Virus record (IMG/VR): IMGVR_UViG_3300024518_001978
Span: 1 to 29,684 of that record
DNA length: 29,684 nt
Direction: 5' to 3' (one strand)
Source of the DNA: a virus
Every line of letters starts with the position of its first letter. Positions within the stretch are counted from its first letter, which is position 1. The position numbers and the translations under genes are program-made. Shown piece after piece: positions 1,704 to 26,189 of this stretch. The notes under the pieces are model-generated. The model had not been told where the DNA came from and did no database searches. It was given only the letters and a program-made list of their open reading frames with translations.

Positions 1704-2228
1704 CTAAAACGGGATCTCGCCGCCGTCAGCGATCTCGTTGATTGCCGCAGCGTCACCTGCCGCCGCTGGACTATCCACAGACGCCTGAGTGTCAGGAGCC
1801 GCCTTCTCCGGAGCCGGAGACGTGTCGACCGGAGCACTCTGGAGAATCGCGTCAATCGTCAGAGCAGCCGACTCGGAGATCGGAGTCTCCCCCCGAGGAG
1901 GTAAGGCTAGTTCGAAGTTTTCGACCGTCCGTCCCTTGTACTCTTTGTCAGTCGCCGACAACTCAGCCGTGTTCCCCGTCAGATCCATCTCAGACAGTCC
2001 GCCGCCACGCCAGCCAGCGTGACGAAGCTTCTTCAGCGCGTACTTGTGATCTCCGTTCGCCGGGAACCAGACGGACACCCGCCGCGTCATCGGGACGGAG
2101 CTCTCCCAGTCCCGTCCGGCTTGTTTGACTTCGTTGATATCGACTTCGAACTCGATCCCCGGCGTCCCCGTCTGTGCCGACACCGGCAGATGCTTTCGGA
2201 TCGTTCCTCGATAGTATCGCTCGCCCAT
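1704..2228 (-). CDS. Single-stranded DNA-binding-like protein with SSB-type acidic tip
   Basis: The 174-residue protein has a compact basic and aromatic N-terminal domain (about 1-110, with VSVWFPANGDHKYALKKL near 51-68). A disordered Ala/Pro/Ser/Asp-rich linker follows (about 125-165), and the protein ends in EIADGGEIPF. A flexible linker that finishes in an acidic tip of the form D-x-IPF is the hallmark of bacterial SSB, where it recruits repair and replication proteins. The N-terminal domain is not an obvious SSB OB fold by eye, so this could be a phage-specific ssDNA-binding family that has acquired the same tail. It lies next to the Sak4-like ATPase and the PD-(D/E)XK nuclease, the usual company of phage recombination SSBs. 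A GAGAGGG ribosome site precedes the ATG. Confidence 0.65.
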   Translation of the reverse strand: MGERYYRGTIRKHLPVSAQTGTPGIEFEVDINEVKQAGRDWESSVPMTRRVSVWFPANGDHKYALKKLRHAGWRGGGLSEMDLTGNTAELSATDKEYKGRTVENFELALPPRGETPISESAALTIDAILQSAPVDTSPAPEKAAPDTQASVDSPAAAGDAAAINEIADGGEIPF

Positions 2229-2321: not shown

Positions 2322-3125
2322 TCAGCCCTCAGCCTTCCCGGCCCTGCCAGCTCCGACCAGCCGTACGAACTCTTTGAAGTCTTCAGCCGCGCTCGCCTTG
2401 CCGATGAACTGACTCGGGAGTCCGTGCCGATTCTTCGCGTCGAAGGCCGCCGACCGCTCGCAGTGATACACCCGCGATCGGCCGCCCTTGCCTTTGCCCT
2501 TGCCCTCGTTGACGTCCGCAACTTCGTGATGGAAATTGACGAAGAGAATCGCATCGGCGAATTTCTTCGTCGCTGACCACGTCGCCGAATTCATCTCGGC
2601 AACGTATCGGTCGAAGTCAGCCCCCTCGGGATTCTTAAAGTTCTCCGTCGTCGTATGGGACAGCAACAGAATCGTCGTGCCCTTCGAGCGAAGCTGATCG
2701 AGATCGGCCAGCCACTCACGCCAGACCACAACCGCCGCCTTTGGCCCTTCCTGATACGCCAGAAAGCCCTTTTTGCTCATCTGCCCGCCGTAGTCCTGAT
2801 CGCAGACCTGACGATGCAAGAGGCCCTCGATCCCGTTCGCCGTATCGACGGCCAGAGCCCGAGGCCGATCCTTCGAGGCGATCATCTCCCGCGTCGCCTC
2901 CCGCACTTCTTTGAACGAACCGAACTGCGGGAAGTAATCGCAGGCCGGCGTCAGGCCCTTGCTCATCAGAGTCAGAAGCCCCGTCTCGTTCTCGCTCATC
3001 ATGAACGCCACTCCGGGAAACTGAGCCGCGAAGCTCGTCTTTCCCGACCCCTCGACCCCGTGAATCACGATCACATCGGCCCGCTTATCGACCGTCTTCT
3101 TCATCGTCTTCAGCCAGTCAGTCAT
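2322..3125 (-). CDS. Sak4-like RecA-fold ATPase (phage recombinase)
   Basis: This 267-residue protein is a RecA-fold P-loop ATPase of the kind found in phage recombination modules (Sak4 or AAA_24-like). Walker A is GVEGSGKTS (23-31), Walker B is ALAVDTANG (90-98), and a third strand ILLLSHT (152-158) matches the RecA-core pattern. Sak4 proteins promote single-strand annealing or strand pairing, usually together with an SSB and a nuclease; both sit directly beside this gene. A basic, Gly/Lys-rich loop (KGKGKGG) occurs near residue 208 and could bind DNA. I chose the ATG at 3123..3125, because it has an AGGGAG ribosome site and makes an ATGA overlap with the upstream nuclease gene. An in-frame ATG further upstream would run 60 bases into that gene. 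Alternative: a phage RecA-like or NTP-binding protein of unknown role. Confidence 0.78.
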   Translation of the reverse strand: MTDWLKTMKKTVDKRADVIVIHGVEGSGKTSFAAQFPGVAFMMSENETGLLTLMSKGLTPACDYFPQFGSFKEVREATREMIASKDRPRALAVDTANGIEGLLHRQVCDQDYGGQMSKKGFLAYQEGPKAAVVVWREWLADLDQLRSKGTTILLLSHTTTENFKNPEGADFDRYVAEMNSATWSATKKFADAILFVNFHHEVADVNEGKGKGKGGRSRVYHCERSAAFDAKNRHGLPSQFIGKASAAEDFKEFVRLVGAGRAGKAEG

Positions 3126-4234
3126 GAATTCGTCTCCCTGTAAGAACCCCAAACAACTTCGAGGAGATCGTGAAACAACGTCCCCCACCGCAGCGCCTCT
3201 GAGCGATCCCGATTCGATCGCACGATGCCGACTTCGTATCTGAGTCTGTGCTTCTCTCGACAGTCGAAGAACACACCGACCCGCGAATTCGTAATCAGAT
3301 CACGACCACCGTTTCCGTGATCCTCGTCGAGCTCAGCGTGTACCGACGAGACATACTCGAAGGCCTCGATCGATTCCTTGCCCGTGCAAAGTCCGAAGAA
3401 CTCGCATTGCTGGCCGAACTTCAGGCAACTCCCCGTGTTTTTCGGACTGACCATAGACCGCCGCGACTTCCGGATCTCGGCCGTGACTTCCCACAGCTCG
3501 GCCGCGTACTGCTTGAGCTCTTCGTCTGTCCGTGAGATTCGCCGCCGGCCGAACGTGCTCGACGGATCCGCTCTGATCGCCGCCCGAAGCCTGATGCCGT
3601 ACAGGTCGAGGAAGTCGGCTTCGTGAATCTTGCCAGTGAAGCCGCCGCTCTTGCCTTTGTTCGCTTCGTACTCCGCCTCGATCGCCGTCAGCGTGTCCGT
3701 CGGAACCGACCAGCCGCAGTACGAACCCGTCTCGGCCAGACGCCTGACGTCAGCCGCTGATATCGCTTTCGGCTTCGTCTTCGGCTTCGACGCCACGTCA
3801 TACAGGCAAGTCGAAACGCCGTGTTTCCCGTTCTGCCGCAGCGTCAGCAGATACTTCGAGACCTGACTGTCGATCGCCAGACGTCGCCAGTAGAGCGTCT
3901 CCGGACCCAGCGTGTCCGACGTCGACTTATGCTCGACGACGAGCTCGTCGCCCGTATCTAAGTCAATCGCCATCCCGTCGACCTTGCCGCCGTGATCGAA
4001 GATCGTTGAAACCCGGCCAGTCGCCGGATTGACGACGTCGGCCGTCAGCTCCATCTCGACCGCCGTCGTCTGATACCGCTTCCTGTCTTCGGCCGACCAG
4101 TGTTCGACGTACTCGAAGACGTAGGCCGCGACCTGAATCGCCGTGATCCGCTCGGCTGAGTCCAGCCAGTCGACTTGCCCCAGTATCCGATCGGCTACCA
4201 GTTGTTGGAGCTCTCCCTCTCCGTTGCCTGTCAT
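3122..4234 (-). CDS. RecB/Cas4-family PD-(D/E)XK nuclease with circularly permuted motif order
   Basis: The 370-residue protein contains all landmarks of RecB-family PD-(D/E)XK nucleases with an iron-sulphur cluster, but in rotated order. In the order seen they are: GKVD (83-86, the GxxD motif with catalytic Asp86); EHK (101-103, the ExK motif); QVSKY (124-128, the QxxxY motif); Cys270, Cys277 and Cys283; Cys325 in FFDCREKH; and GTLFH (351-355, the GxxxH motif). In ordinary family members the single Cys and GxxxH are at the N-terminus and the three-Cys group is at the C-terminus. An in-frame TAA lies two codons upstream of the ATG, so no N-terminal part has been missed. The expected role is end resection or processing for the neighbouring Sak4-like and SSB-like proteins. 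The family call is firm. The permutation is read directly from motif order and needs structural confirmation. Confidence 0.82.
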   Translation of the reverse strand: MTGNGEGELQQLVADRILGQVDWLDSAERITAIQVAAYVFEYVEHWSAEDRKRYQTTAVEMELTADVVNPATGRVSTIFDHGGKVDGMAIDLDTGDELVVEHKSTSDTLGPETLYWRRLAIDSQVSKYLLTLRQNGKHGVSTCLYDVASKPKTKPKAISAADVRRLAETGSYCGWSVPTDTLTAIEAEYEANKGKSGGFTGKIHEADFLDLYGIRLRAAIRADPSSTFGRRRISRTDEELKQYAAELWEVTAEIRKSRRSMVSPKNTGSCLKFGQQCEFFGLCTGKESIEAFEYVSSVHAELDEDHGNGGRDLITNSRVGVFFDCREKHRLRYEVGIVRSNRDRSEALRWGTLFHDLLEVVWGSYRETNS

Positions 4235-4506: not shown

Positions 4507-5538
4507 TTATGCGTTTGCCTCGACCATCTCCTCGTCAGAAAACAGCCGCCGCTCCTGCGGCTCGTCTGCCACATCCAGAGCCGTTGCCACATTGCGGACT
4601 GCCTGATTGTAATACGACTCCTTGAGTTCAATGCCGACCCCTCGGCGGCCGTTGCGGACTGCTCCGTAGACTTCGCTGCCGACACCCATGAACGGAGTCA
4701 GCACCGTCTCGCCTGGATTGCTCCACATCACGCAGGCCCGATTTATCACGTCAAGCTGAAGAGGATGCATATGCCTCTCGTCGCCCTCGTCTCGCCCTTC
4801 CTGATACGCTAGGACTGCTCCCGCGTCTTTCTTCCTGTCGCCCATATTGCCGCGGATGTCGTCCCACACTCCGGACGCATAGTTTCTCCAAATCCAGTGA
4901 GAAAAGCGGTTCTCTGTTTGCTTGCCGGTCCAGCCACGATATCGGTGCAGGTCTTCCGGAATCTCCCGACACCCGAAGTATTCGAGGAACCCCGTTTCGT
5001 GGGTCACTGGAATCGGATTCTCGCCCTTCTTGCGGAACGGAATCAGGTAGTCCGATGCCGCGACGTTCACCTGACAGCAATCCTCGACCGTCTGCCGGTG
5101 AGCCAACGCCTTCGTCATCGTCCGATTTCGAACGGCGAGCGGCTCTTTCCAGATGCAGATTCGCGGCGTGTATTCGAAGCCGTGCCTCTGATGCAGCTTA
5201 ATAATATCGCCAGGGAAGTCGTTGTATCCGCAGATGTTTGCCCCGTCTTTCGGCGTGTCCATGCAATGCACCGCGGTAATCCGCCCCGGCAGCGTGACCC
5301 TCGCAATCTCGGAGACGACAAACTCGTAATGCTCGAAGAATTCGTCGTACGACCGACAGTTCGACAAGTCCCGCTCGCTCGACGAATAGTGGTACAAGCA
5401 CCCGCCGCCGTCGCTGGCGAATGGCGGCGAGTAAACGGAAAGATGAACCGACTCGTCTGGAAGAGTCGGCAACACCTCGCAGGTGTCCCCATGATAAAGA
5501 GCGTATCTGTCCGTGAGCGTCTGATCTATTACAGCCAT
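4507..5538 (-). CDS. N4/N6 (beta-class) DNA methyltransferase
   Basis: This 343-residue enzyme would transfer a methyl group from S-adenosylmethionine to the exocyclic amine of cytosine or adenine in DNA. The catalytic motif IV is SPPF at 37-40, the form favoured by cytosine-N4 methylases but also found in N6 enzymes. The SAM-binding motif I comes late as PFMGVGS (282-288), followed by GIELKESYY (302-310). Motif IV before motif I defines the beta class. The central part (about 60-250) includes a large target-recognition region. The start overlaps the end of the helicase gene by ten bases, with an AAGGA site upstream. No restriction endonuclease is adjacent, so it is an orphan methylase that probably protects phage DNA or marks it for regulation or packaging. 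Confidence 0.88.
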   Translation of the reverse strand: MAVIDQTLTDRYALYHGDTCEVLPTLPDESVHLSVYSPPFASDGGGCLYHYSSSERDLSNCRSYDEFFEHYEFVVSEIARVTLPGRITAVHCMDTPKDGANICGYNDFPGDIIKLHQRHGFEYTPRICIWKEPLAVRNRTMTKALAHRQTVEDCCQVNVAASDYLIPFRKKGENPIPVTHETGFLEYFGCREIPEDLHRYRGWTGKQTENRFSHWIWRNYASGVWDDIRGNMGDRKKDAGAVLAYQEGRDEGDERHMHPLQLDVINRACVMWSNPGETVLTPFMGVGSEVYGAVRNGRRGVGIELKESYYNQAVRNVATALDVADEPQERRLFSDEEMVEANA

Positions 5539-6890
5539 TCCGGCAGCATCCTTTCCATAGAACCATATTGAGTACGTTCGTGGATGACCGCTTCACCCAT
5601 GAACTTCGTCAGCAAATTGAACATCTGATCGGCCCGTGCCGACTTACGTTTCAGATTGTCGAGAACTCCCCGCCCGCCTTCAGTTGTGATAATCTTGATA
5701 GTGACTTTGTTTTTCTGTCCGAATCTCCACGACCGTCGGACCGCCTGGTAATACTGCTCGAAACTGTCACTCGGAAACATGACTTGATGATGGCAATGCT
5801 GCCAGTTGAGTCCCCAGCACCCTATCTTAGGCTTCAGTACCAAGCACTTCAGATCGCCGGCAGAGAACGCCAGCAGCCTCTCCTCTTTCTGTTCGTCGCT
5901 CATTGATCCGCTGACCTGCAACGCATCGGGGACCATCTTCTCGACCGCGTCTGCCTCCGGATTGAGGTGACACCAGACAAGCGAATGCCCGTCGTGGCCA
6001 TCGACTTCTTCGGCGGCTCGCTCACAGCGTTCTGTGATCGTGTTCCGCCGCTCGTACTGATGATCGGCCATCGTTTTCGGCGGAGTGATAAATAGTTGAC
6101 CCGGTCGCGGCTTATTGCATTCCAGATTTATCTCGGTCTCTTCCAGTTCCGGCAGAACGAAATCCCCGTCCTGAAATCCGATGTCTGATGGCTTCCGACA
6201 AGCCCTCGCCCACGAACAGACCCATTTCCAGAATGGCTCTTCGGCATGCCCGATGAGACGATATTTACTGCGGCCCCATCCGCGATGGTCCTTCCCTGTT
6301 TCCTGCTTGAAGAACCGCCCGAGCATGTCCCGGTAACCTAGACCGCCGAGAGCTTCGGAGGATGTCCCGAGTTCATGGAAATCATTCGGAGCCGGAGTTG
6401 CCGTGCAGAGATACCGATACGGAATCGTCCGCATAAACTCCGTCACTTGTGCAGTCGTTTTTCCGTCCGCCGATTTGATTGCACTCGCCTCATCGCAGAC
6501 GACAGCCTCGAAATCGGAGCTATCGAACTTGTGCAGCTGATGGTAGTTCGTGACGACTATTTTCGCTTTCGCACCGAACTTCCCGTCCCTGGCTCGCTCG
6601 ACTTCTATTCCAAACTTCTCAGCCTCTTTGAGAGTCTGATATGACACCGCCAGAGGCGTAAGGATGAGCGTCCTCTTGTTTGTCTGCCTGGCGACGTTCT
6701 CGGCCCAAACTAGCTGTAGAAGCGTCTTGCCGAGCCCGCAATCCGCATACGTCGCACTCCGGCCGCTACGTGTCGCCCACTCGACCAGATGCTTCTGAAA
6801 GTCAAACAGGACGTCCGGCATCCAGACCGGATCGAACCCGTGCTGACCGCCGAGCTGTGACTTTCGCTCAATGAATGCCTCGTACGTCAT
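5529..6890 (-). CDS. SNF2-like DEAD/DEAH-box helicase or translocase
   Basis: This 453-residue superfamily 2 ATPase has motif I DCGLGKT (50-56), motif II DEAS (133-136), motif III TATP (163-166) and motif VI QAVRRSWRFGQ (382-392). The RxWRxGQ form of motif VI is typical of SNF2-type proteins. It is shorter than cellular SNF2 enzymes and has no visible extra domain, as is usual for phage versions. These phage helicases are commonly found next to a DNA methylase and act in replication or recombination as dsDNA translocases. Both sides here fit: the methylase lies downstream with a ten-base overlap and a zinc-ribbon protein lies upstream with an ATGA overlap. The ATG follows a GGGGGAGAT site that is part of the 27-bp repeat. 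Confidence 0.88.
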   Translation of the reverse strand: MTYEAFIERKSQLGGQHGFDPVWMPDVLFDFQKHLVEWATRSGRSATYADCGLGKTLLQLVWAENVARQTNKRTLILTPLAVSYQTLKEAEKFGIEVERARDGKFGAKAKIVVTNYHQLHKFDSSDFEAVVCDEASAIKSADGKTTAQVTEFMRTIPYRYLCTATPAPNDFHELGTSSEALGGLGYRDMLGRFFKQETGKDHRGWGRSKYRLIGHAEEPFWKWVCSWARACRKPSDIGFQDGDFVLPELEETEINLECNKPRPGQLFITPPKTMADHQYERRNTITERCERAAEEVDGHDGHSLVWCHLNPEADAVEKMVPDALQVSGSMSDEQKEERLLAFSAGDLKCLVLKPKIGCWGLNWQHCHHQVMFPSDSFEQYYQAVRRSWRFGQKNKVTIKIITTEGGRGVLDNLKRKSARADQMFNLLTKFMGEAVIHERTQYGSMERMLPEWL

Positions 6891-14540: not shown

Positions 14541-16550
14541 TCAAGCGAACGTCGGAGCCGCGTCCTTCACGGCCCGCACAGTCGCCTTTGCGTGTTTCGC
14601 CGTCTCTTCCGTCGCCTTTGCCGTCCTGTCCTCAGCCGATGAGCCTGAGCCCAGAGCGACCGCTTGAAAGACGGAGAAGGCTCCCTCGACCGAGCTCTTC
14701 GTCTTCTCTTCCTTCTGAGTCACCCCCCGCGACTTCTCAGCGACCTTTGCCGCCTGCTTCGCCTTCTCGCCCTCCTGAGCTGACGCCTCGGCCGCCCGCT
14801 TATCGGCCGCCGCTTTGATCGATGCCGCCAGCTCTTCCCGCGCCGAGTCGATCGCCAGTTGATTCTCCGCCAGCTCGGCCGTCAGAGCCGCCTCACGATT
14901 CGCGTCGGCCGTCTCCTGCTGCGAGCTGAGCTCCTTCTGAACCGCCGTCCTCTGAGACTCGATTCTGGCCAGGCTCGACTTCCGCTCCTGCTCCCGCTCG
15001 ACGATCGCCTTGTCTCGATCCCTGTCGACCTGCTGATTGACTTCCCGCGTCGCTTTGTTGATCTCTTCGCTCTTGTCCTCGGAGCCCGTGACCGTTGCCT
15101 TCAGCTTCGACCACGCCGACTTAAAGAATCCGACCGTCGAATTCCAGCCCTTACGAAGCCCGGACGTGAACACCGAGAAAGCGTCAGCGATCACGTCCCA
15201 CGTCTTCACCCCGATCGACTGAATCTCAGCCCATTGATTCGTCATAACTGAAGCCGCGTTGAAGACCGCGTTCGACCAGACCGTCTGAAAGAAGTTCGTA
15301 AACTCCGACCACTTGCCGCTCATCGAAGAGACGACCCGAGCCCACTCCGCTTTGAGAAACAGGGCCGCGATCTTGAAAGCCGTCTTAAGATCGCCGGCAC
15401 CGACCGCGTCTCTGATCGCTCCCCATGATTCGAGAGCCCTGTCCTTAAACGAACTGAAAGCCGCCGAGCCGGCCTGAGTCGCTCCCTCGATCAGCGAGCC
15501 GAAGTCGACGAAGTAAGCCAGGAGAGCCACGATCCCAGCCGTGACCAGACCGATCGGAGAGACGAGAGCCCCCATCACCGCGACGACGACACCGATCACC
15601 GTTCCAATTGCACCGAAGCCCAGCGAGACCAGACCGAGGATCGAAGCGAAGGCCGAGGCCAGGGCCCCGACGACCAGCAGCCCGACCCCGGCCGCCACGA
15701 TGCCCGCGACGACGAGAGCGATCGTCTTGACCAGAGACTGATTCTCAGTCGCCCACTCCGCCAGAATCTTGACGACTCCGGAGACCTTTTCGAGCATCTC
15801 GGCAATCGCCGGAAGGAGAGCTATCCCCACCTCAGCAGCCGCGTCAGTCGCCGTCGACTGAACCCGCTTGAGCTGATTCGCGAACGATCCAGAGCTTCTG
15901 ACAGAGTCACCCTGAGCCGCTGACGTGTCTCTGACGATGATCGCCAGCCGAGCCATCGCCTTCTGTGCTTCCGTCGCCTTCTTCGGATCGATTCCGTCCT
16001 CAAGCAACTTTGCCTTGACCGCCGCCGCCGATACCACGACCCCGTACTTTTTGACCGTCTCGGAGCTCCCCGTCAGAGCCGCCGTGAGATCCCGGAAGAC
16101 GTCCGAGTCAGACTTATTGTTGAACGAAGCCAGATCGACAGCCAGACCCGCCAGCGTCTTCGAGGCTTCCTGAGCGACCGCCGGATCGACTCCCACCGGA
16201 ACGAGCAAATCCTGAGACTCGGCAAGGAAGCTTGCGATCGAAGTCTTCGACCGGCCGACCTCTGCCGCGAACGTGTCCGACCACTTCTTGACCTCCTCGG
16301 CATTCGCACCGAAGACGACGTCGAACTTATTCATCGTCTCTTCGAGATCGCTCGCCGCTTTGATCGCCAGACCGAAGGGAGTAGCCAAAGCACCGCCGAC
16401 GGCCAGAAGCCGAGCCCCGAGCCCGGACGTGAACTTCGCGAAGCCCTGAAGCCGCTTCTGAGCTGACCGCAGGCCCCGCCGTAGCTTCGAGTCCTCAGCG
16501 AAGAGCTCGACGAATGCCCGGCCGGCTCTGACCCCTTTTGCTCCTGCCAT
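14541..16550 (-). CDS. Tail tape measure protein
   Basis: A 669-residue protein with the layout of phage tape measures. An N-terminal TP901-type region contains KRLQGFAKFTSGLG (about 29-42) and ALATPFGLAIKAASDLEETMNKFDV (about 54-78). A long, very hydrophobic Gly/Val/Ala-rich region follows (about 270-345, several potential membrane segments). The C-terminal half is a strongly helical, charged coiled coil (about 480-640). It sets tail length and may pass into the host envelope at injection. At about 0.15 nm per residue it predicts a tail of roughly 100 nm. It follows the two chaperone frames with a two-base gap, the standard order. No lysozyme or peptidase domain is visible. Confidence 0.93.
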   Translation of the reverse strand: MAGAKGVRAGRAFVELFAEDSKLRRGLRSAQKRLQGFAKFTSGLGARLLAVGGALATPFGLAIKAASDLEETMNKFDVVFGANAEEVKKWSDTFAAEVGRSKTSIASFLAESQDLLVPVGVDPAVAQEASKTLAGLAVDLASFNNKSDSDVFRDLTAALTGSSETVKKYGVVVSAAAVKAKLLEDGIDPKKATEAQKAMARLAIIVRDTSAAQGDSVRSSGSFANQLKRVQSTATDAAAEVGIALLPAIAEMLEKVSGVVKILAEWATENQSLVKTIALVVAGIVAAGVGLLVVGALASAFASILGLVSLGFGAIGTVIGVVVAVMGALVSPIGLVTAGIVALLAYFVDFGSLIEGATQAGSAAFSSFKDRALESWGAIRDAVGAGDLKTAFKIAALFLKAEWARVVSSMSGKWSEFTNFFQTVWSNAVFNAASVMTNQWAEIQSIGVKTWDVIADAFSVFTSGLRKGWNSTVGFFKSAWSKLKATVTGSEDKSEEINKATREVNQQVDRDRDKAIVEREQERKSSLARIESQRTAVQKELSSQQETADANREAALTAELAENQLAIDSAREELAASIKAAADKRAAEASAQEGEKAKQAAKVAEKSRGVTQKEEKTKSSVEGAFSVFQAVALGSGSSAEDRTAKATEETAKHAKATVRAVKDAAPTFA

Positions 16551-16552
16551 GC

Positions 16553-16858
16553 TCAGACTCCGAACTTTTCGCTGACCTGATCCTTCGAGAGCCCGTCAAC
16601 GAAGACGGCCTTCAGAATCGAGATATCTAGCTTCCCGTGTTTCGCCTTCGCCCGCCGCTGCCGATCTGAAATCTCGTAGACGTGAAAGTCAATCGCCGAC
16701 CACGGCTTCCGCCGCTTCTTCGGATCCCTGACCGTGTTTGCCACCATCGCTTCCACCGAAGCAGTATGCCACCACAGCCCCCGATCCCGTCCTTCGTTCA
16801 TCTCCACCAGATCAGCCAGACTCAACGACCACGGCACCACACCGACGAACCCGGCCAT
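16553..16858 (-). CDS. Tail assembly chaperone, downstream (T-like) frame
   Basis: This frame encodes MAGFVGVVPWSLSLADL, then LWWHTASVEAMVANTV, RDPKKRRKPWSAIDFHVY and a C-terminal helix that ends SEKFGV. The W-x-HTA-x-x-x-A-x-x-x-N-x-x-RDPKK-x-x pattern followed by a DF segment is typical of the second tail-assembly-chaperone frame (lambda GT type). The frame is -1 relative to the upstream chaperone and stays open well upstream past its stop, to about 16993. The product may therefore be made as a -1 frameshift fusion. Alternatively it starts independently at the ATG 16856..16858, which has GGAGAGG about twelve bases upstream. I give the independent start coordinates; the coordinates of a fusion would be 16553..17355. 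Confidence 0.7.
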   Translation of the reverse strand: MAGFVGVVPWSLSLADLVEMNEGRDRGLWWHTASVEAMVANTVRDPKKRRKPWSAIDFHVYEISDRQRRAKAKHGKLDISILKAVFVDGLSKDQVSEKFGV

Positions 16859-16881
16859 CTGAAGAAATATCCTCTCCGCGT

Positions 16882-17355
16882 TCAGCTCTTCCCGCTGACG
16901 ATCTCCTGAGCCAGCGCGTCGAAGTCCGTCTTCTCCATCCTCTCGATCGCCGCCTGAGTCTGCACCGCCGCCGCCTTCTCCGTCGCTCCCCACAATCTCG
17001 CCAGAGCCCGACGGAGAGGCCGGCTCCGCTCCGCTGGGAAAAAATCAAGGATCGCCTCAATCAGTTGACGCGAAGCCTCGACGACCACTTCCTCGGAATT
17101 CAGAGCGTCCCCGAATTCTTCCTCTGATACTCCTTTGTCTCTGAGCTGACGATCAAGAAGACAGACCACCACCTCGAAGAACAGCACCGGATCGGAAGTA
17201 ATCTGATCGATGACCGTCGACCCCGCCTCGATTGCCTCGAAGAGATTCACCCCCGTTGCCTTCTTCACTGCCCGCACCGATCCGCCCGTGACAGAGAAGA
17301 CCCACTTCCGCCCCTCGCCGTCGACGAAAGCCGTCGGCCTCAGTTCCTCGCTCAT
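16882..17355 (-). CDS. Tail assembly chaperone, upstream (G-like) frame
   Basis: The 157-residue protein opens with FVDGEGRKWVFSVTGGSVRAVK, then KATGVNLFEAIEAGST and SDPVLFFEVVVCLLDRQL. This is the strand-then-helix pattern of phage tail chaperones, which coat the tape measure during tail assembly. It is followed by the -1 frame open reading at 16553..16858 and then the tape measure. Just before its stop the RNA reads AGC GGG AAG AGC TGA. This is not a canonical X-XXY-YYZ slippery site, although GGGAAG resembles part of lambda's. The gene begins right after the terminator at 17370..17408. Length and place agree with the family. Confidence 0.75.
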   Translation of the reverse strand: MSEELRPTAFVDGEGRKWVFSVTGGSVRAVKKATGVNLFEAIEAGSTVIDQITSDPVLFFEVVVCLLDRQLRDKGVSEEEFGDALNSEEVVVEASRQLIEAILDFFPAERSRPLRRALARLWGATEKAAAVQTQAAIERMEKTDFDALAQEIVSGKS

Positions 17356-17369
17356 ACCTTCCCCTCATG

Positions 17370-17408
17370 AAAAAACGGCCGAGCCGATCCCGTAATCGAC
17401 TCGGCCGT
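17370..17408 (-). terminator. Rho-independent terminator or attenuator before the chaperone gene
   Basis: ACGGCCGAG pairs perfectly with CTCGGCCGT on the minus strand. An inner CGAT/ATCG extension lies inside the hairpin, and the stem is followed at once by TTTTTT. It lies between the 75-residue gene and the tail chaperone gene. It would make downstream tail genes depend on readthrough or antitermination. Confidence 0.8.
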
Positions 17409-17426
17409 GTATTAAAGAAACCGACT

Positions 17427-17654
17427 TCAGACCGAAGCCGGAGAAGCCTTCTCAAGAGCTTTGATCAGCAGCCCTCTCGGGATGTTGACGTACTCCGTCG
17501 ACGGCTTGCCGACTGCCGGATTTATCTCCTTTGCCAGCACCACTGCCGCCGCGTCTCCGAGAGCCGCCTTGACGTCGTCGCGCCGAACTGCCACCGCTCC
17601 GCAAGCGTTGCCCCGAGCCTTGCAGCCAGCGAGAAGAATCTCTCTCTCGTTCAT
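17427..17654 (-). CDS. Hypothetical 75-aa protein between tail tube and chaperone genes
   Basis: I do not recognise this protein. It has an Ala-rich N-terminal half with two Cys (LLAGCKARGNACGAVAVRRDD) and a C-terminal half with KEINPAVGKPSTEYVNIPRG and LLIKALEKAS. The ATG at 17652..17654 is preceded by a TGGGG element. It is flanked on both sides by terminators, so it may be an independently attenuated small gene. A position between the tail tube and the chaperones is unusual for a non-structural protein; it may be a small tail factor. Confidence 0.55.
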   Translation of the reverse strand: MNEREILLAGCKARGNACGAVAVRRDDVKAALGDAAAVVLAKEINPAVGKPSTEYVNIPRGLLIKALEKASPASV

Positions 17655-17678
17655 CGAATTACCCCAGATTGATTAAAG

Positions 17679-17699
17679 AAAAACCCGACCGACGGCCGG
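17679..17699 (-). terminator. Terminator after the tail tube gene
   Basis: CCGGCC and GGTCGG pair (one wobble) around a three-base loop on the minus strand, and the stem is followed by one further G and TTTTT. It starts six bases after the tail tube stop. It would raise tail tube transcripts over downstream genes. Confidence 0.65.
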
Positions 17700-17704
17700 A
17701 ACTA

Positions 17705-18145
17705 TTAAGGAACTGTGAACCACTCCGGAGGAGAGTCCGTGTTCGGAGTAGGCTTCAGAACAACCGAGACCGTCACCGCCTCTTCGAGAGGCTCCGACCG
17801 AGAGAAGTTCTCGACGACGCAAGTCATCCGCAGGCCCTGAGAGCCAGACGTACCGCTCGGCCCGTCGAGAGCCACGACGTTGAGAGTCGTCCCGTTGAAG
17901 AACGCCCCCTGAATCGCAGTGAAGTCAGCGTCCGCAGGATCGTAGACCATCTCGAATTCAATCGAGGAGTCCTTCAGGCCCTGCACATACTCACGCCAGC
18001 CGCCCGAGCCCCGCGAAGAGGCGTCAGCCGATGCCGCTTCCAGATTGAGAGTGACGTCCTTCGTCAGCCCGATCGCATCCCAAACGGGAGTTGCGTAAGT
18101 CCCCGTGTTCCGATTCAGCTCACAGGTGAGCCCGGTAATCGCCAT
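17705..18145 (-). CDS. Major tail tube protein
   Basis: The 146-residue protein begins MAITGLTCELNRNTGTY, with WDAIGLTKDVTLNLEAASAD and then SSRGSGGWREYVQGLKDSSIEF. It ends with a beta-rich segment (VENFSRSEPLEEAVTVSVVL). An N-terminal G-x-x-C/Y strand, the W-x-x-I-G-x-x-KDV strand, a flexible Ser/Arg/Gly loop and the Y-x-x-G-x-x-D-x-S-x-E-x-E element are typical of siphovirus tail tube subunits. It has a strong AGGAG ribosome site eight bases before ATG and is followed by a terminator, both expected for an abundant structural protein. It is upstream of the chaperones and tape measure in the usual order. Confidence 0.85.
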   Translation of the reverse strand: MAITGLTCELNRNTGTYATPVWDAIGLTKDVTLNLEAASADASSRGSGGWREYVQGLKDSSIEFEMVYDPADADFTAIQGAFFNGTTLNVVALDGPSGTSGSQGLRMTCVVENFSRSEPLEEAVTVSVVLKPTPNTDSPPEWFTVP

Positions 18146-18184
18146 TTCAGCTTCTCCTGAGAGAGTCTCGAAGTCTCTCTTCTC

Positions 18185-18652
18185 TCACTCAATCGGCTCG
18201 CCCAGGTCGAGGAGATATCGGATCGCCTCACCCGGCTGAGCCGGCTCCGGATCCGCTTTCCTCGACGAGAGGAGAGCGTCTCCGATTATCCCTGCCCCGA
18301 ATGGAATCCCGGCACCCGTCGCAATCAGGCCGGCTCCGATCGCCAGCTTCGCAATTGTCCCGAGTGTCTTCCGGTTTGCCTTCGAGGCGTCTTCGTCCTT
18401 TGCAGCCGTCCCGTAGTTGTGAACCGTTGTCGGAGAGTCGATCGTCAGTGTTGAACCCACCTCTTCCCCCTCTCCACTCAATCCCGGCACCGCCTCCGCG
18501 TTGATCGCTCGCCGTAATTCCTCATTGTGTTTCGCCTGAGCCGCCATCTGATCCGCTACTGACTGTTGATGCTGAAGCCTGATCCCCTCGATCGCCTTCA
18601 GATAAGCCGGCCCGCTCGATGACTCTCTTGTCTCCGTTGTCTCCGTCATCAT
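18185..18652 (-). CDS. Hypothetical protein with C-terminal Gly/Ala-rich membrane segment (155 aa)
   Basis: The protein has a Thr/Ser/Glu-rich start, then a helical region (AYLKAIEGIRLQHQQSVADQ, about 16-35). A short beta motif of the type seen in phage proteins (STLTIDSPTTVHNYG, about 67-81) follows, then a hydrophobic glycine-rich stretch LAIGAGLIATGAGIPFGAGI (about 103-122) that could cross a membrane. The C-terminal tail is acidic. It might be a holin-like or tail-associated membrane protein; the evidence is only the hydrophobic stretch. Two ATG codons lie in tandem (18652 and 18649). The second sits at a better distance from the GGGGGAG site. Confidence 0.6.
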   Translation of the reverse strand: MMTETTETRESSSGPAYLKAIEGIRLQHQQSVADQMAAQAKHNEELRRAINAEAVPGLSGEGEEVGSTLTIDSPTTVHNYGTAAKDEDASKANRKTLGTIAKLAIGAGLIATGAGIPFGAGIIGDALLSSRKADPEPAQPGEAIRYLLDLGEPIE

Positions 18653-18758
18653 CTCCCCCTTCCCGAAGAGCTGAACCTACTGGCCTCTCAAGCCGACGAA
18701 GCTCCCCGTCGAGGAATTCTCGACGGGAAGCGTTTACTCGTTCGACGAAGCCTGTCAT
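18522..18758 (-). CDS. Doubtful 78-aa reading frame overlapping the next gene
   Basis: An ATG at 18756..18758 opens a frame of 78 codons. The first 35 residues (TGFVERVNASRREFLDG, then ELRRLERPV) could form amphipathic helices and fill the 103-base gap between two genes. The rest overlaps the 155-residue gene and is rich in Gly, Asp and Ser, as expected for a shadow frame. The ribosome site is weak (GGCGGG). It may be a small real gene or nothing. Confidence 0.28.
   Translation of the reverse strand: MTGFVERVNASRREFLDGELRRLERPVGSALREGGDDDGDNGDKRVIERAGLSEGDRGDQASASTVSSGSDGGSGETQ
18705..18727. repeat. Perfect 9-bp inverted repeat with 5-bp centre
   Basis: CCCGTCGAG and CTCGACGGG are perfect inverted copies around GAATT. 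No T run follows on either strand, so it is not a terminator. It lies in the gap between the 85- and 155-residue genes and could be an operator, a protein-binding site or an RNA hairpin. Confidence 0.6.
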
Positions 18759-18761
18759 CTG

Positions 18762-19019
18762 TTAACCCGCCGGAGCGTTGCCAGGCTGACCAGCCGCCGC
18801 TCGCTGTTGAAGGATTGCGTTCGCCGTCCCGTCCTTCTCAAGTCGAGTCGCCGCCAGAGCTCCGATGAGCTGAGACGAATTCAGGAAGCCCATTTGCGCT
18901 TGCTCCTGAATGAACGTCGCCGAGGAGTTTCCTCGAATCGCCGCCTGTCGAATCAGCTCCGACCGTTCGGCAAAGCCCTGATCGAGAACCACCGAAACCG
19001 TCGGGTTTAGTTCGCTCAT
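18762..19019 (-). CDS. Hypothetical 85-aa protein following the trypsin-like protease
   Basis: The protein is mostly helical, with SVVLDQGFAERSELIRQAA and FIQEQAQMGFLNSSQLIGAL, and has an Ala/Gly/Pro-rich end. I do not recognise it. Its ATG overlaps the protease stop as ATGA, so the two are translationally coupled. It may act with the protease, for example as an inhibitor or chaperone, but nothing in the sequence proves that. No membrane segment or Cys is present. Confidence 0.6.
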   Translation of the reverse strand: MSELNPTVSVVLDQGFAERSELIRQAAIRGNSSATFIQEQAQMGFLNSSQLIGALAATRLEKDGTANAILQQRAAAGQPGNAPAG

Positions 19020-20065
19020 TTCTTCCCGCCTTCCCCTGTTAGAAGCTTCTCATGGAATCGAAGTCGGATCGGAGAGCCCCGAGGATAGGACCGTTTCGCA
19101 ACCGTCTTCCCCTCGATCGTCTCAATCCAGACTTCGACCGGCCGCTCGGCCTGTCGCTTCAGATATTCAAGCCGCCCTTCCAGAGCCGCAATATCTACGA
19201 CCGGAGTCTCCGGTCGACCCTCGACCTTCCGGAGCCGTGATTCGACGACCGTGATCGTCTGAGTCAGCTTCTCGATCCCACCTGCCAGCCTGTCAACCTT
19301 TTTGCTGACATCAGCAGAATGGTCCGGCTTAAAATTGTCGAGCCGTTTTTTTAACGCGACGAGCTCGGCTTCAAGATGCTCAATCCGCTGGACCTTCTGC
19401 CTGTCCGGGATGTCCCGAGGCGGAGGCACCGGCAGAGGAGCCACCCGCCCCGAAGCCGGAGGCCGGCAGGGAACGCCCCAGCGAGCGCAGAACGGCCGAC
19501 AGATCGAGACCGGGACAAATACCGTCTGAGTCTCGCTCGTCGCCGTAATGATCCCGTAGAGCCGGGAACCGATCGCAATCGCGCCGCCTGAGTCCCCCTG
19601 CCTCGACGGAGAGCTGACGATCCCCGCGCTGAGGATCTGACCCCGGCCGCGTCGATAGCCCTTCGCGTCAGACTTGCCCGAGTCAGGACCGAGCCCGTCG
19701 AGGTAGACGGCCAGACCGTCAGGCCCGTCGTCGCCGATCGTCGCCACGTCGTAAGTCGTCGGAGCCGTCCGCAGGATCGCCAGGTCCTCGGAGTCGTGCT
19801 TCGCCACGACCTCGGCCGGCTTGCCGTGTACCTCAGCCCGGCCGTAGCTCAGAACGTGCTTCGCCGTCAGAACGTAGTCGAAGGCTCGATCCCGACCGAC
19901 GATGACCCCCGTCCCATATTCGACCGTCCTGACCGTCTCACACTCCCGCCGCCCGTTGACGACCCGGCATACCTGCTGCCCCTCAGAAGTCGACGTCACC
20001 CGCACAATTTGAGCCTCGGCCTGAGCCGTGACCAGCACCAACACAACCGCGAACAGCATTCCCAT
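19016..20065 (-). CDS. Secreted trypsin-like serine protease with coiled-coil tail (349 aa)
   Basis: The N-terminus is a signal peptide (MGMLFAVVLVLVTAQAEA, probable cleavage near residue 18). A chymotrypsin-fold (S1) domain follows with the full triad: His70 in LTAKHV, Asp94 in SEDLAIL and Ser159 in GDSGGAI. YGTGVIVG (50-57) marks the first barrel strand. After about residue 205 come a Pro-rich hinge and a coiled coil (about 222-310), then a basic end. The protein would act outside the cytoplasmic membrane. The start has GGGGGAAG just upstream. It stands inside the morphogenesis operon, between a one-helix membrane protein and a small coupled gene. Roles to consider are host envelope breakdown, virion maturation or a moron-type cargo. 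The protease call is firm; the role is open. Confidence 0.88.
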   Translation of the reverse strand: MGMLFAVVLVLVTAQAEAQIVRVTSTSEGQQVCRVVNGRRECETVRTVEYGTGVIVGRDRAFDYVLTAKHVLSYGRAEVHGKPAEVVAKHDSEDLAILRTAPTTYDVATIGDDGPDGLAVYLDGLGPDSGKSDAKGYRRGRGQILSAGIVSSPSRQGDSGGAIAIGSRLYGIITATSETQTVFVPVSICRPFCARWGVPCRPPASGRVAPLPVPPPRDIPDRQKVQRIEHLEAELVALKKRLDNFKPDHSADVSKKVDRLAGGIEKLTQTITVVESRLRKVEGRPETPVVDIAALEGRLEYLKRQAERPVEVWIETIEGKTVAKRSYPRGSPIRLRFHEKLLTGEGGKK

Positions 20066-20076
20066 TTCTTCCCCCC

Positions 20077-20391
20077 TTAGTTGTTGTTACCTCTCGCAAT
20101 TTCGACCCGGAGCGCGTTGATCGCCTCCGTGTTTCGGTCGATCACCATCCCCAGCTTTTCGTCCGACCGCTTCATTTCTTCGAGCTGAATCCCGATCGTC
20201 TTCCGATCCACAACGTACGGAGAATCCGTCCTGATGAGCTGCCGGATCTCGTCCGCCGGGATGATCTCGGAAGCCTTCGCCGTGATCCAACCGCACCACC
20301 CCACTCCGCCCGTGCAAAGCAGACCGACAAGAGCCATCAGAACCCGATCCTTGTATTCCGCGAAGCCAGCCATAAAGCGTTTTCCGATCAT
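20077..20391 (-). CDS. One-helix membrane protein with coiled-coil tail (104 aa)
   Basis: The protein has one hydrophobic segment (about 18-36: VLMALVGLLCTGGVGWCGW). This is followed by a soluble helical part with IPADEIRQLI and a C-terminal coiled coil (IGIQLEEMKRSDEKLGMVI, then NTEAINALRVEIARG). This layout is shared by phage Rz-like inner-membrane spanins and by single-helix holins or tail-anchor proteins. It lies eleven bases upstream of the trypsin-like protease and may work with it in the envelope. No lipobox is present. Confidence 0.65.
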   Translation of the reverse strand: MIGKRFMAGFAEYKDRVLMALVGLLCTGGVGWCGWITAKASEIIPADEIRQLIRTDSPYVVDRKTIGIQLEEMKRSDEKLGMVIDRNTEAINALRVEIARGNNN

Positions 20392-20417
20392 TGCTCAACC
20401 TTGCCCGTTGAAGCGTG

Positions 20418-20942
20418 TTAGGGATTTGCCGCTTTCCAGATGTTGGAGATATTCTGCTTCTCTTCCTCGAAGGCCGGCATCATGAACGGCCGCGCCGCGA
20501 TCCGCTTCGTGAGTCTCCGGCCTGTCCTCTGTCTGATCGCCTTCCGGAATCGGCCCCGCTTATCCCGTCCGGACTGGAACGTCCTGATCTCGTCGAACGT
20601 GATCGACCCGCCGCCGTATTCCAGAGCCTCAAGAGCCTTCGCCCCGCCCTTCGCTTCCGGGAAGACGACCGGCCCGATCACCACCGACTCGGCCACCCGA
20701 TCGAACCCGAACCTGATTCCCCGCTTCAGCGTCCCGATCTGACTCCTCGGAGGTGAACCCGGAGCCGATCTAACTTTCTTCTTCCCGCCTGGCTTAATCG
20801 AGCTCTTCGACCGCTGGCGAACGAAGGCCCCGAACTTCGAGAGGAACTTCCGCTTCTCCGTCGTCAGCGCGTTGATCACCCCCTTCCGATCGAAGAAGAC
20901 GTCCTTAATCTTGAAGCCGACGCCGAGAGGATTTGAAGCCAT
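20418..20942 (-). CDS. HK97 gp10-like head-tail connector or tail completion protein
   Basis: The 174-residue basic protein has an N-terminal helix with KFLSKFGAFVRQRSKSSI, a Pro/Gly-rich loop GSPPRSQIGTLKRGIRFGF and a strand VIGPVVFPEAKGG. It has YGGG and then a C-terminal RIAARPFMMPAFEEE. The last element, R-PFM-x-PA, is a signature of the gp10/virion-morphogenesis family that forms the neck or tail-completion ring. The usual helix, beta-sheet, long loop and C-terminal R-PF order is kept. It follows the other joining genes, in accord with that role. Confidence 0.78.
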   Translation of the reverse strand: MASNPLGVGFKIKDVFFDRKGVINALTTEKRKFLSKFGAFVRQRSKSSIKPGGKKKVRSAPGSPPRSQIGTLKRGIRFGFDRVAESVVIGPVVFPEAKGGAKALEALEYGGGSITFDEIRTFQSGRDKRGRFRKAIRQRTGRRLTKRIAARPFMMPAFEEEKQNISNIWKAANP

Positions 20943-20945
20943 CGC

Positions 20946-21383
20946 TCAACCTCGATAAATCACCCGGAGAACTGACAGCGCAACCCGCTTGACGACGTGA
21001 GCCGGATCGTAAAGCCGAACCTGGACCGCCCCTTTCAGACGAACTATCTCTCCGTCCGAGACCGTCAGCGCCGCGTTATCCCGATCCCGGATGACACCGA
21101 GAACCTCTTCCAGAGTCAGAAGATGCGTCGCCATGTCGGCCGCCTCATTCGACAGCCGCCGGCCGATCCCGATCTCAATCGAGTGATCGTCGTGATCCGT
21201 AGTCCGGCTCGCATTCTCGATCTCCATCGAACTTGCAACGACGACCCCCTTCGGAGACGTCAGCTCATCCGCCTCGAACTCCGGAACGAAAACCCGCGCG
21301 AAGATAATGCCTTCGGTCAGCCCGGCCGCGTTGATCAGGGAGACGACCGCATCGGCCGTGTCTAGTGTCTGCTGAACTGGCAT
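20946..21383 (-). CDS. Putative tail terminator or minor head-tail protein (145 aa)
   Basis: The chosen ATG at 21381..21383 lies two bases after the stop of the preceding gene; a longer reading from 21470 would overlap it. The protein has DTADAVVSLINAAG near the start, then VFVPEFEADEL, VVVASSMEIENASR, HSIEIGIGRRL and a C-terminal end with VKRVALSVLRVIYRG. A helix followed by a beta sheet of this kind, in this position, fits a siphovirus tail terminator or minor tail protein (gpU/gp18-like). Similarity is at the level of pattern and place only. Confidence 0.6.
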   Translation of the reverse strand: MPVQQTLDTADAVVSLINAAGLTEGIIFARVFVPEFEADELTSPKGVVVASSMEIENASRTTDHDDHSIEIGIGRRLSNEAADMATHLLTLEEVLGVIRDRDNAALTVSDGEIVRLKGAVQVRLYDPAHVVKRVALSVLRVIYRG

Positions 21384-21385
21384 GA

Positions 21386-21793
21386 TCAGGCCCCCGCCGT
21401 TGTCGTTGTCGTCGTTATCTTGTCGACCTCGACCGCATGGATCCGGAAGACCAGATACCCCTTGTCCCAATACCGGAACGGCTCGCCAACCAGATCGATC
21501 ACGTCGAACTGCCGGGAGTAATCCCCGACCGTCTCCGTGATCGAATCGCCTCGAGCCGGCTCTTCTCCGACGCCGAGGATGACTTCCAGCTCCGACCTCC
21601 TGACCAGATAGTCCCGGACCTTCAGCCGGATCTCTGAGCCGTCGTCTTCAATCGCGTTGACCAGCGTGTCAGCAGGAACCGCCGTCAGCGAGCCGGAGAG
21701 AACCGGAGACTGCCGCGCATACGTGACCGTGACTCCGGAGACCGATCGGATTGACAGCCAGCCAGCCAGCTCTGCCCGGCTTTGAATCGTCAT
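21386..21793 (-). CDS. Putative head closure or head-tail joining protein (135 aa)
   Basis: The protein is beta-rich, with LSIRSVSGVTVTYAR near the start, the segment RRSELEVILGVGEEPARGD and YWDKGYLVFRIHAVEV near the end. It finishes with six Thr in a row and AGA. The order after the capsid gene, with gp10-like and terminator-like genes following, matches head-closure proteins of siphoviruses. The Thr run at the very end echoes the stalk composition of the later tail proteins. It starts after the terminator that follows the capsid gene. The function is inferred from synteny. Confidence 0.55.
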   Translation of the reverse strand: MTIQSRAELAGWLSIRSVSGVTVTYARQSPVLSGSLTAVPADTLVNAIEDDGSEIRLKVRDYLVRRSELEVILGVGEEPARGDSITETVGDYSRQFDVIDLVGEPFRYWDKGYLVFRIHAVEVDKITTTTTTAGA

Positions 21794-21809
21794 CCTCGCC
21801 CCTCCTATG

Positions 21810-21846
21810 AAAACGGCTCCCCCGGCCGAAGACCGAGGGAGCCGGG
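21810..21846 (-). terminator. UUCG-loop terminator after the major capsid gene
   Basis: The minus strand has a 14-pair stem (CGGCTCCC and GGGAGCCG at its base, wobble pairs included) closed by a C(UUCG)G tetraloop and followed by TTTT. It starts 27 bases past the capsid stop. It would give abundant capsid transcripts, with partial readthrough into the joining and tail genes. Confidence 0.82.
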
Positions 21847-21872
21847 AACCGCTTCAGGTAACTGCGTCAACA

Positions 21873-22802
21873 TCAGACAACGACCGCTTCGGTCGAGACG
21901 ATCGAGTCCGTCGGAACGATCGGAATCCCGAAAGCTTCCGTCGGGAACGGAGCCGGAGCACCCGTCCCGTTCGTCGCCGTCCGGCTTTGCTGAAGCTGAC
22001 GAAGGCTCGTCCGATTCAAAGCCAGATAAGACGGACCACGTCCCGACGGGAACGTGTTGATCAGCTCGGAGAGCTTGTCGTCATCGAGAGTCGCCGTCGC
22101 GTCGATATTGCAGAGCCGACCGACAGATCGAGCCCCGCCGATCTGCATCCCGAGCCATGCGAAGATCGGAGTCGCGTAGACCGGATATCGGCCCGTCGCC
22201 CCGTCGATGAACTGACTGACCGAGTCGCCCATCATGATATTACCATTCATCCCGGCGATCATGACCGCGTCCCGGAGATCAGTTCCCGTTCTCACAGCAA
22301 GAACAGAAGTCTGAACATTCGCAGCCACTCCGCCACCGTCGATCACCATCTCGTCGGCCAGAGCGTCGAGCTGAGCGTTGTCGAACAGACCGATGAAGCC
22401 GGCCGCGTCGGCCCCGACACCGTAGATCATCTGAGACTCGCCAGCGGAGAAGCCCGACCGCAGATGCCGGGAAGCTTCCCGAGCGATATACGCCGTTGGC
22501 CCCAAACGATACTGATCGGCGATTGCCTGATCGACCACGAAGGAGCAATCCAGCAACTTGAGAGTCACAGTCACTTCGGTATCGGTCGACTTGAAGTTCT
22601 CACGCCCGTCATTGACAGACCGGAATCCCACCGTCGGAGCACCCGTCTGCTTGACATATTTATGAGTGTCGCCGTCAGTCTCCTCAGCAGCCGTCAAAGC
22701 CAGAAGAGGAGCCTCGTCGAGGAGATCGCTGATCCCCGGATCCATGTTGTTTTTGTCGTTCAGCTTCGCCAGATCGGCAAGCGTGAGGAATGCATCAGCC
22801 AT
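21873..22802 (-). CDS. Major capsid protein (HK97-fold)
   Basis: The 309-residue protein begins with LTLADLAKLNDKNNMDPG and a helix-rich N-arm. It then has THKYVKQTGAPTVGFRSV, VTVTLKLLDCSFVVDQAIAD near residue 85, and a long helix-sheet core. The VTVTLKLLD-x-x-F-x-VD element is the usual spine strand before the long helix of HK97-fold coat proteins. It follows a maturation protease with a scaffold part and is flanked by a terminator, as is typical for the most abundant head protein. The ribosome site is AAGGACG. Its shortness suggests that little or no delta domain is present; scaffolding is probably supplied by the C-terminus of the protease gene. Confidence 0.85.
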   Translation of the reverse strand: MADAFLTLADLAKLNDKNNMDPGISDLLDEAPLLALTAAEETDGDTHKYVKQTGAPTVGFRSVNDGRENFKSTDTEVTVTLKLLDCSFVVDQAIADQYRLGPTAYIAREASRHLRSGFSAGESQMIYGVGADAAGFIGLFDNAQLDALADEMVIDGGGVAANVQTSVLAVRTGTDLRDAVMIAGMNGNIMMGDSVSQFIDGATGRYPVYATPIFAWLGMQIGGARSVGRLCNIDATATLDDDKLSELINTFPSGRGPSYLALNRTSLRQLQQSRTATNGTGAPAPFPTEAFGIPIVPTDSIVSTEAVVV

Positions 22803-22858
22803 TGTGATTCGTCCTTCAGTTTAAGTTTTGAGAATTGAAAGCCGCGAACCGTCAGAAG

Positions 22859-24070
22859 TCAGTTCGACTCGGATCGACCGTTGATCCGGACCTGCCTCGC
22901 CAGCATCTCGACCGACTTCGAAAGTCGACCGCCGAACTTCAGCACCGGCCCGGATTCACCGGCAGAACCGACCGGAGTTTCCTCGCCCGGCTCATGCTCA
23001 GCCGTCAGAGAACTCCGCTGCTTCAGCGAATCGAACTCCGTCGAAAGAGCGTCTTCGAAGCTGACTCCGTCGAGCAGATACTTCAGCCCCACATCGGCCC
23101 CGAACTTCGCCGAGAACTTCTCGACGTCCGCCCGGCTCAATGCCGCAGCTTCCAGTTCCGGCTCCGGCTCTGTTGCCGTCTCCGTCTCAGTCTCAACGAC
23201 AGCCACTTCGGCCGCCGTTTCCGTCTCAGTCGTTGCCTCGGATTCGAGGCCCGTGTCTTCAGAATCGCTCATCTGCTGAGCCTCCTCTTCCGCGACTTGG
23301 AAAGTGATCCCGCGACCGCCGCAGAACCGCGTAAAGAATCCCCGGAGCCGCTCAGCCGAAAGGCCGCCCGTGTTCTCCGGGATTGTGTCCGTGATGCCGA
23401 TTGCGTACTCAAGCAGCCCCTCGGCTTGTGAGAGGATCTCAGCCGTCGGACCCGAGTGATAAAGCCCGTCCGGATTCGCCGCCGGAGAGTCCACGAAGTC
23501 CGCTCCGTCCAGCGTCGAGAGCCTTACGTGCTGGAGGTTTCTGACGTTCTCGGCGGCGGGAGAAACGAAGTCGCCGTCGTCGGAGAACTCCTCGACGAAG
23601 GCCTGAGCCGCTGAGTGATCGGGATCGAAGACAATCGACAGACCGAAGGCCTTCGGATCTTCCTTCGCCAGCTCCAGAACGTACCCGCCCCTGTCGTCAC
23701 CCTTCCGGGAGACCGGAGAGAAGTGAACGTCACCCAGCACCCGCGACCCGTCTTCGCTGAGACGGAGATCCCGAGCCCGGCCGAGATAGCTTCCCAGACC
23801 GTCGGAGCTCATCGAGGGATGCGTGAACCGGACCTTAACCCCCGTTGATTCGTCGGCCAGAGCCACGACCTGAGAGAGAGCCGCTCGATCGATCCACATA
23901 TCGTGCCCGAGAGCTTCGCCTTCGGAGATCAGAGAGGCTCCGCGAATGATGCCAGCCTTTCGGCTTCCGCCGTCCATCTCGACTGGAGCCTCAAATTCCG
24001 TCGATCGTTCCGCGTTCAGTCGCACCCGTTCGGGAGCCTCTGTGATCACAGATAAGAGAGTTGGCCTCAT
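22859..24070 (-). CDS. Prohead maturation protease with C-terminal scaffold region
   Basis: The N-terminal part (about 1-220) is a herpesvirus/HK97-type prohead serine protease. It has VRFTHPS with His84, GRARDLRLSEDGSRVLGDV, and AFGLSIVF with Ser145. After a linker at about 225-260 comes an acidic, helical region (about 260-400) with many Glu and Thr (TETETAAEVAVVETETE). This resembles a scaffolding domain, degraded after assembly. Fusion of both functions in one protein is known from several phage groups. It lies between the portal and the capsid gene, the expected place. The full length would scaffold the shell and the protease would clear it. Confidence 0.85.
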   Translation of the reverse strand: MRPTLLSVITEAPERVRLNAERSTEFEAPVEMDGGSRKAGIIRGASLISEGEALGHDMWIDRAALSQVVALADESTGVKVRFTHPSMSSDGLGSYLGRARDLRLSEDGSRVLGDVHFSPVSRKGDDRGGYVLELAKEDPKAFGLSIVFDPDHSAAQAFVEEFSDDGDFVSPAAENVRNLQHVRLSTLDGADFVDSPAANPDGLYHSGPTAEILSQAEGLLEYAIGITDTIPENTGGLSAERLRGFFTRFCGGRGITFQVAEEEAQQMSDSEDTGLESEATTETETAAEVAVVETETETATEPEPELEAAALSRADVEKFSAKFGADVGLKYLLDGVSFEDALSTEFDSLKQRSSLTAEHEPGEETPVGSAGESGPVLKFGGRLSKSVEMLARQVRINGRSESN

Positions 24071-24072
24071 GG

Positions 24073-25530: not shown

Positions 25531-25531
25531 C

Positions 25532-25729: not shown

Positions 25730-25752
25730 GAGCTCAATTCGATGAGATCAAA

Positions 25753-25778: not shown

Positions 25779-25795
25779 CGAGAGAGAGACGAGAG

Positions 25796-25843: not shown

Positions 25844-25870
25844 GTCAATTTCCGTTGTCGGAGTCTCCGG

Positions 25871-26173: not shown

Positions 26174-26189
26174 CCCTTCCCTCCCTGAA

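Follow-up and report, generated by a model that had tools for sequence, protein, structure and literature searches.

The window, a 29,684-nt virus sequence from IMG/VR (record IMGVR_UViG_3300024518_001978, positions 1 to 29,684), encodes what is very probably a circularly permuted natural variant of the RecB/AddB/Cas4-type phage exonucleases (Fe-S PD-(D/E)XK enzymes), in which the relocated segment would pack in cis and which would resect DNA for Sak4 and SSB. In the proposed arrangement, the first ~55 residues of the canonical enzymes, carrying the first Cys and the GxxxH helix, would have been attached behind the old C-terminus via a short linker, and the new termini would lie in the stretch that connects the GxxxH helix with the helix following it. 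The coordinates of the gene, its motifs and its partner genes are collected in the table.

Canonical members of the family have one N-terminal Cys, three C-terminal Cys and the motif order I-II-III-QxxxY (PMC4176176). The motif order in the window protein is II-III-QxxxY-CCC-C-I; it is therefore a permuted variant and not an ordinary family member, although by homology, motifs and the four Cys its sequence places it in the RecB/AddB/Cas4 iron-staple PD-(D/E)XK family. The first-pass annotation had proposed this rotation, and all motifs and the four Cys were found at the residues it named, with every RecB/Cas4 landmark occurring once (GxxxH is single). Two extra Cys, Cys143 and Cys173, are not conserved landmarks. 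A missed N-terminus is excluded, as that annotation had argued, since an in-frame stop stands just ahead of the start (TAA-CGA-ATG).

Table. Predicted features of the permuted nuclease gene and of the adjacent recombination genes in the window
Feature	Position	Strand	Basis
Circularly permuted RecB/Cas4-type PD-(D/E)XK nuclease gene, 370 aa, ATG start	3122..4234	minus	ORF; PF12705 and phrog_1218 matches; rotation scan
Nuclease core, residues 1-310, corresponding to canonical ~55 to C-terminus	3305..4234	minus	phrog_1218 profile 101-353; hhalign
GKVD (83-86), motif II, D86 predicted catalytic	3977..3988	minus	invariant wherever covered, 72 proteins
EHK (101-103), motif III (D/E)xK	3926..3934	minus	K103 invariant where covered
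QVSKY (124-128), QxxxY motif	3851..3865	minus	Q124 and Y128 invariant where covered
Cys270, Cys277, Cys283, corresponding to the three C-terminal Fe-S ligands of the canonical family	3386..3427	minus	invariant 72/72
Fusion linker, residues 303-310 (DEDHGNGG), old C-terminus (VHxEL) to old N-terminus (LTNSR)	3305..3328	minus	
Relocated segment, residues 311-370, corresponding to the N-terminus of canonical members	3125..3304	minus	phrog_1218 profile 6-57
Cys325, equivalent of the canonical N-terminal Fe-S ligand	3260..3262	minus	invariant 72/72
GTLFH (351-355), motif I GxxxH	3170..3184	minus	G351 and H355 invariant where covered
Sak4-like RecA-fold annealase gene, overlaps nuclease stop by ATGA	2322..3125	minus	PF13479 E 6.4e-21; phrog_124 E 2.2e-23
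Probable SSB gene, C-terminal tip GGEIPF	1704..2228	minus	position as annotated SSB after Sak4 in Tunturi phages

Both PF12705 and phrog_1218 match the window protein in two stretches in reversed order: the middle and end of each profile align with residues 36-283/307, and the N-terminal part of each is matched by the last 80 aa of the protein on their own (phrog_1218 positions 6-57 of 364, E 6.9e-7; PF12705 positions 5-50 of 247, E 3.6e-5, a score above the cut-off). The PF12705 score of the window protein is 44.5 bits at a cut-off of 22, and the family is matched by 30/30 permuted members. For the rotation scan, a profile was built from 23 canonical-order relatives, and the window protein was rotated at every third residue. 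In its native order the protein matched this profile in two pieces, the larger scoring 172.4 bits, whereas rotation at ~306 gave one uninterrupted domain of 217.8 bits covering profile positions 11-334. In tblastn, the rotated query aligned with a phage protein of canonical order without a break at the artificial junction. Profile-profile comparison (hhalign) of permuted and canonical members gave E 3e-62, with 25% identity in those profile columns that aligned, leaving unmatched canonical profile positions 1-67 and the permuted C-terminus. The circular permutation is thus real at the sequence level, since rotation restores a single canonical domain, and the predicted structure is consistent with it.

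The IMG/VR and GTDB contigs were scanned with hand-made motif patterns and a 30-row alignment profile; narrow patterns (the single sequence, a 3-row alignment, Tunturi_2) matched no related loci. The core-then-segment order was found at 122 loci, which correspond to 72 proteins at 99% identity and 56 clusters at 70%, and the canonical segment-then-core order at 52 loci in the same scans; because one scan contributed the best 80 of 192 loci by similarity to the window and several loci share a contig, the ratio of permuted to canonical loci says nothing about abundance. The rotated motif order, which the first-pass annotation had suggested looking for in close homologues, is thus present in 72 non-redundant viral proteins, and the homologues show that the C-terminal 60 residues are not an unrelated domain, the finding it had named as fatal to the permutation. 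The four Cys are invariant in all 72, and D86, K103, Q124, Y128, G351 and H355 are invariant wherever covered; position 101 is D in 55 and E in 15 of the proteins.

The permuted homologues come from soil and environmental phages. The phage collection yielded two relatives, from the cultured Acidobacteriota phages Tunturi_1 and Tunturi_2, both permuted identically, and the plasmid collection gave no match to the permuted nuclease. One permuted member (L099) lies in an Acidobacteriia MAG contig, with Sak4 and then an SSB-like gene behind it. It is the sole true relative among seven genome-contig pattern matches, the other six being due to chance. Strong relatives occur in 3 of 396 Acidobacteriota genomes, with the permuted order in L099 only. 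A more distant permuted relative is probably already present, unremarked, in UniProt: the BFVD model A0A6J5NSY1 (uncultured Caudovirales phage), annotated solely as PD-(D/E)XK superfamily and 20% identical to the window protein, aligns sequentially over the entire permuted model (TM 0.78/0.83), unlike what is expected for the canonical order. Two loci carry frame breaks. In one canonical-order nuclease (L094:681-1904) the N-terminal segment and the core lie in two overlapping frames, either because of an error in sequencing or because the enzyme is split in nature, and a permuted gene (L021:3397-4330) has a similar break.

The canonical phage exonucleases (phrog_1218, PF12705; L106, L049, L085, L074 and L058) share the motifs and the four Cys and usually adjoin Sak4, but their first Cys and GxxxH are N-terminal, whereas those of the permuted protein are C-terminal. 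At the junction of the permuted proteins, the canonical C-terminus (...VHPEL) is followed after 8-19 residues by the canonical N-terminus (LTNSR...), this spacing being measured from HxEL to [ILV]T[NH]S in 30 permuted members. Both halves of the junction can be recognized in the canonical L106, which begins MNLLTSSR and ends FVHPELTAPGA. The new termini directly follow the GxxxH helix and precede the helix after it; the chain break thus falls between the GxxxH helix and the helix preceding GxxD, where the first-pass annotation had placed it.

In a tree of 45 proteins (de-rotated alignment, midpoint root), the permuted proteins form one clade with bootstrap 99 and SH-aLRT 94, and the same support (99/94) was obtained from the core with the moved segment left out. 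As far as these alignments go, a single origin of the permuted clade is shown. The clade is nested among canonical-order phage nucleases, the nearest being L045, L049, L085 and L106, with a join supported by only 83/39, and the window protein is its deepest branch. The canonical order is presumed to be ancestral, because, besides its position in the midpoint-rooted tree, it is found across the remaining superfamily as well (AdnA, AddB, Cas4). Close canonical-order relatives show this presumed ancestral arrangement in the same gene neighborhood; among them L106 (1489-2469, minus strand), which is near the permuted clade, comes from the same phylum as L099 and is followed by Sak4- and SSB-like genes, provides a natural control. 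No duplication intermediate carrying the segment at both ends turned up in six frames of 186 loci, nor among the 174 relatives, and tandem duplication as the route to the permutation is unproven. The origin of the relocated segment from the same gene copy is likewise not proven, because the segment-only tree (about 60 columns; 2 changes) does not resolve.

Purifying selection acts on both the core and the relocated segment in those close pairs for which it could be computed, with dN/dS of 0.04-0.30 for the segment in four of five pairs. Between Tunturi_2 (L002:8740-8920) and Tunturi_1 (L003), the relocated segment coincides with a sharply bounded mosaic tract of ~67% (63-72%) nucleotide identity, flanked by sequence of about 96% identity (mostly 90-100%). 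In this pair dS is 2.5 in the segment and 0.30 in the core, and the segment dN/dS is 0.10. The pattern looks like an exchange confined to the relocated segment. As for cassette exchange in the clade at large, the signal is clear in Tunturi_1/2, weaker in L016/L017, and not general.

These observations bear on how the segment reached its present position. It may have been captured from another nuclease gene with loss of the original N-terminus, rather than by duplication and truncation; we regard this as unlikely, though worth keeping in mind, as the unresolved segment tree fits capture and the Tunturi_1/2 mosaic tract comprises exactly this segment, which is hence exchangeable as a unit, but no donor was seen. 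The single conserved clade and the junction would fit one ancestral event of either type and weigh little either way. A related and similarly doubtful proposal is that the job of the staple has changed, making it a local C-terminal knuckle that could fold, be lost, or be exchanged among phages as a cassette, with the segment possibly swapped between subunits; cassette exchange is hinted at by the Tunturi_1/2 tract.

The window protein was modeled with AlphaFold2 as a monomer from 30 permuted sequences (pLDDT 89.4, pTM 0.85) and compared with a model of the canonical L074 (pLDDT 92.1, pTM 0.87). The comparator starts with E4-6 H8-16 H18-26 E29-31 H36-52, and the window model ends with H316-324 H326-335 E337-339 H346-368, preceded by a short strand 313-314. 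The remaining secondary structure runs parallel in the two models, so that the predicted fold is consistent with a canonical type whose secondary-structure order is rotated. The predicted core fold and the iron-staple Cys pattern resemble those of Cas4, ACE1 and the AdnA and AddB nuclease domains, but these enzymes have the canonical linear order, and the permuted model aligns to them sequentially only after the GxxxH helix. In sequential alignment with AdnA, the permuted model gave Z 10.1 (rmsd 3.7, 186 aligned, AdnA 838-1039) and the comparator Z 18.0 (rmsd 3.2, 234 aligned, AdnA 791-1039); the AdnA stretch missing from the permuted alignment is that which the moved segment would be expected to supply. 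Against ACE1 9iab the permuted model gave Z 8.9 (rmsd 3.1, 178 aligned); alignments with ACE1 began at ACE1 residue 73 or 76 for the permuted model, as against 3 or 9 for the comparator. A sequence-profile search of solved structures gave no significant relative, the best canonical match being 4ic1 (E 0.062).

In the window model, the pTM and the high pLDDT, 92-96 across most of residues 311-340, are consistent with segment 311-370 packing beside the active site, although a monomer model would not reveal a domain swap. The segment could instead act in trans, swapped onto a neighboring subunit in an obligate domain-swapped oligomer. The 41 residues between Cys283 and Cys325 would suffice for a cis or a swapped arrangement, and some canonical relatives form rings, e.g. 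the Cas4 protein SSO0001 (PMC4176176). However, the confidently predicted monomeric fold and the short linker between HxEL and TNS make a domain swap rather improbable. If the segment packs in cis at the position of the canonical N-terminus, catalysis would be unchanged, consisting of metal-dependent hydrolysis by H355, D86, E101 and K103.

The nuclease gene adjoins a gene for a single-strand annealing protein, in keeping with a phage nuclease-annealase recombination module. Among the genes tested, 38 of 42 permuted ones and 36 of 48 canonical ones were accompanied by a Sak4 homologue. The probable SSB gene further downstream had no family match of its own among the Pfam and PHROG profiles. 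In phage HK620, Sak4 acts as an annealase, and the SSB of that phage stimulates it (PMC5928155). Given the conserved catalytic residues, the four Cys, the overlapping Sak4 gene and the probable SSB, the window protein is most likely an ordinary Fe-S exonuclease, the end-processing nuclease of an annealing module. It would resect double-stranded ends to single strands, with the adjacent Sak4 and SSB acting during phage recombination. A role as a Cas4 of CRISPR adaptation was rejected: the window protein and that of Tunturi_2 have no NCBIfam match, to the cas4 model or otherwise, and the identified neighbors are Sak4, a methyltransferase and a helicase rather than cas1 or cas2. The latter two, a DNA methyltransferase and a SNF2/DEAD-type helicase (window 4507-6890, minus strand), are encoded by genes overlapping by 10 bases; since phrog_16 matches both (the helicase at 269-596, the methylase at 822-929), the two genes may correspond to a fused protein that has been split. 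Genes for terminase large subunit, portal, major head and tape-measure proteins lie at window 14541-28346 on the minus strand, and the 29.7-kb record therefore belongs to a tailed phage.

It is highly improbable that the permuted protein has ceased to be a nuclease and serves as a structural or regulatory partner of Sak4, as D86, K103, Q124, Y128, H355 and the four Cys are kept in effectively all 72 proteins. An artefact (misassembly, frameshift, or chance likeness of an unrelated C-terminal domain) has almost no chance of being the explanation and is refuted by the homologues: nothing specific speaks for it beyond the single-contig frame breaks of L021 and L094 in the data set, whereas the rotated order is common to the non-redundant set and to two complete cultured-phage genomes, and the segment on its own matches the family significantly and shows purifying selection.

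Permutations in the wider PD-(D/E)XK superfamily were reportedly mentioned by Steczkiewicz in 2012. In agreement with the first-pass annotation, which knew of no permuted member, the literature searched contained no described circular permutant of the RecB/AddB/Cas4 nuclease family, and a phylogenomic study of Cas4 does not mention permutation (PMC5704561). The CCGG-family restriction enzymes, e.g. PfoI, likewise combine a PD-(D/E)XK fold with an altered order of the catalytic residues along the sequence, but in their 'permuted' active sites single catalytic residues have migrated and the chain is not circularly permuted, unlike that of the window protein (PMC6344858). The closest named counterparts are the proteins of Tunturi_1 and Tunturi_2 (XJP11549.1 and XOB77130.1), which are 34% identical, share the permutation and have Sak4 and SSB annotated downstream; their motif III is DHK, as against EHK in the window protein. 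They are annotated merely as 'exonuclease', a word absent from the main text of the genome paper (PMC11924767).

For a natural circular permutant of this family, four Cys within 56 residues mean that the Fe-S cluster would no longer tie together the two ends of the chain. The predicted iron 'staple' would be local to the C-terminus, and the termini would now adjoin the GxxxH helix. A natural rotated clade thus offers a clean test of the role of the staple, i.e. whether it holds the termini or does something local. In linear-profile searches and sequential structure alignments such enzymes come out split or with too low a score (Z 10 versus 18 with AdnA), and more of them may therefore be hidden.
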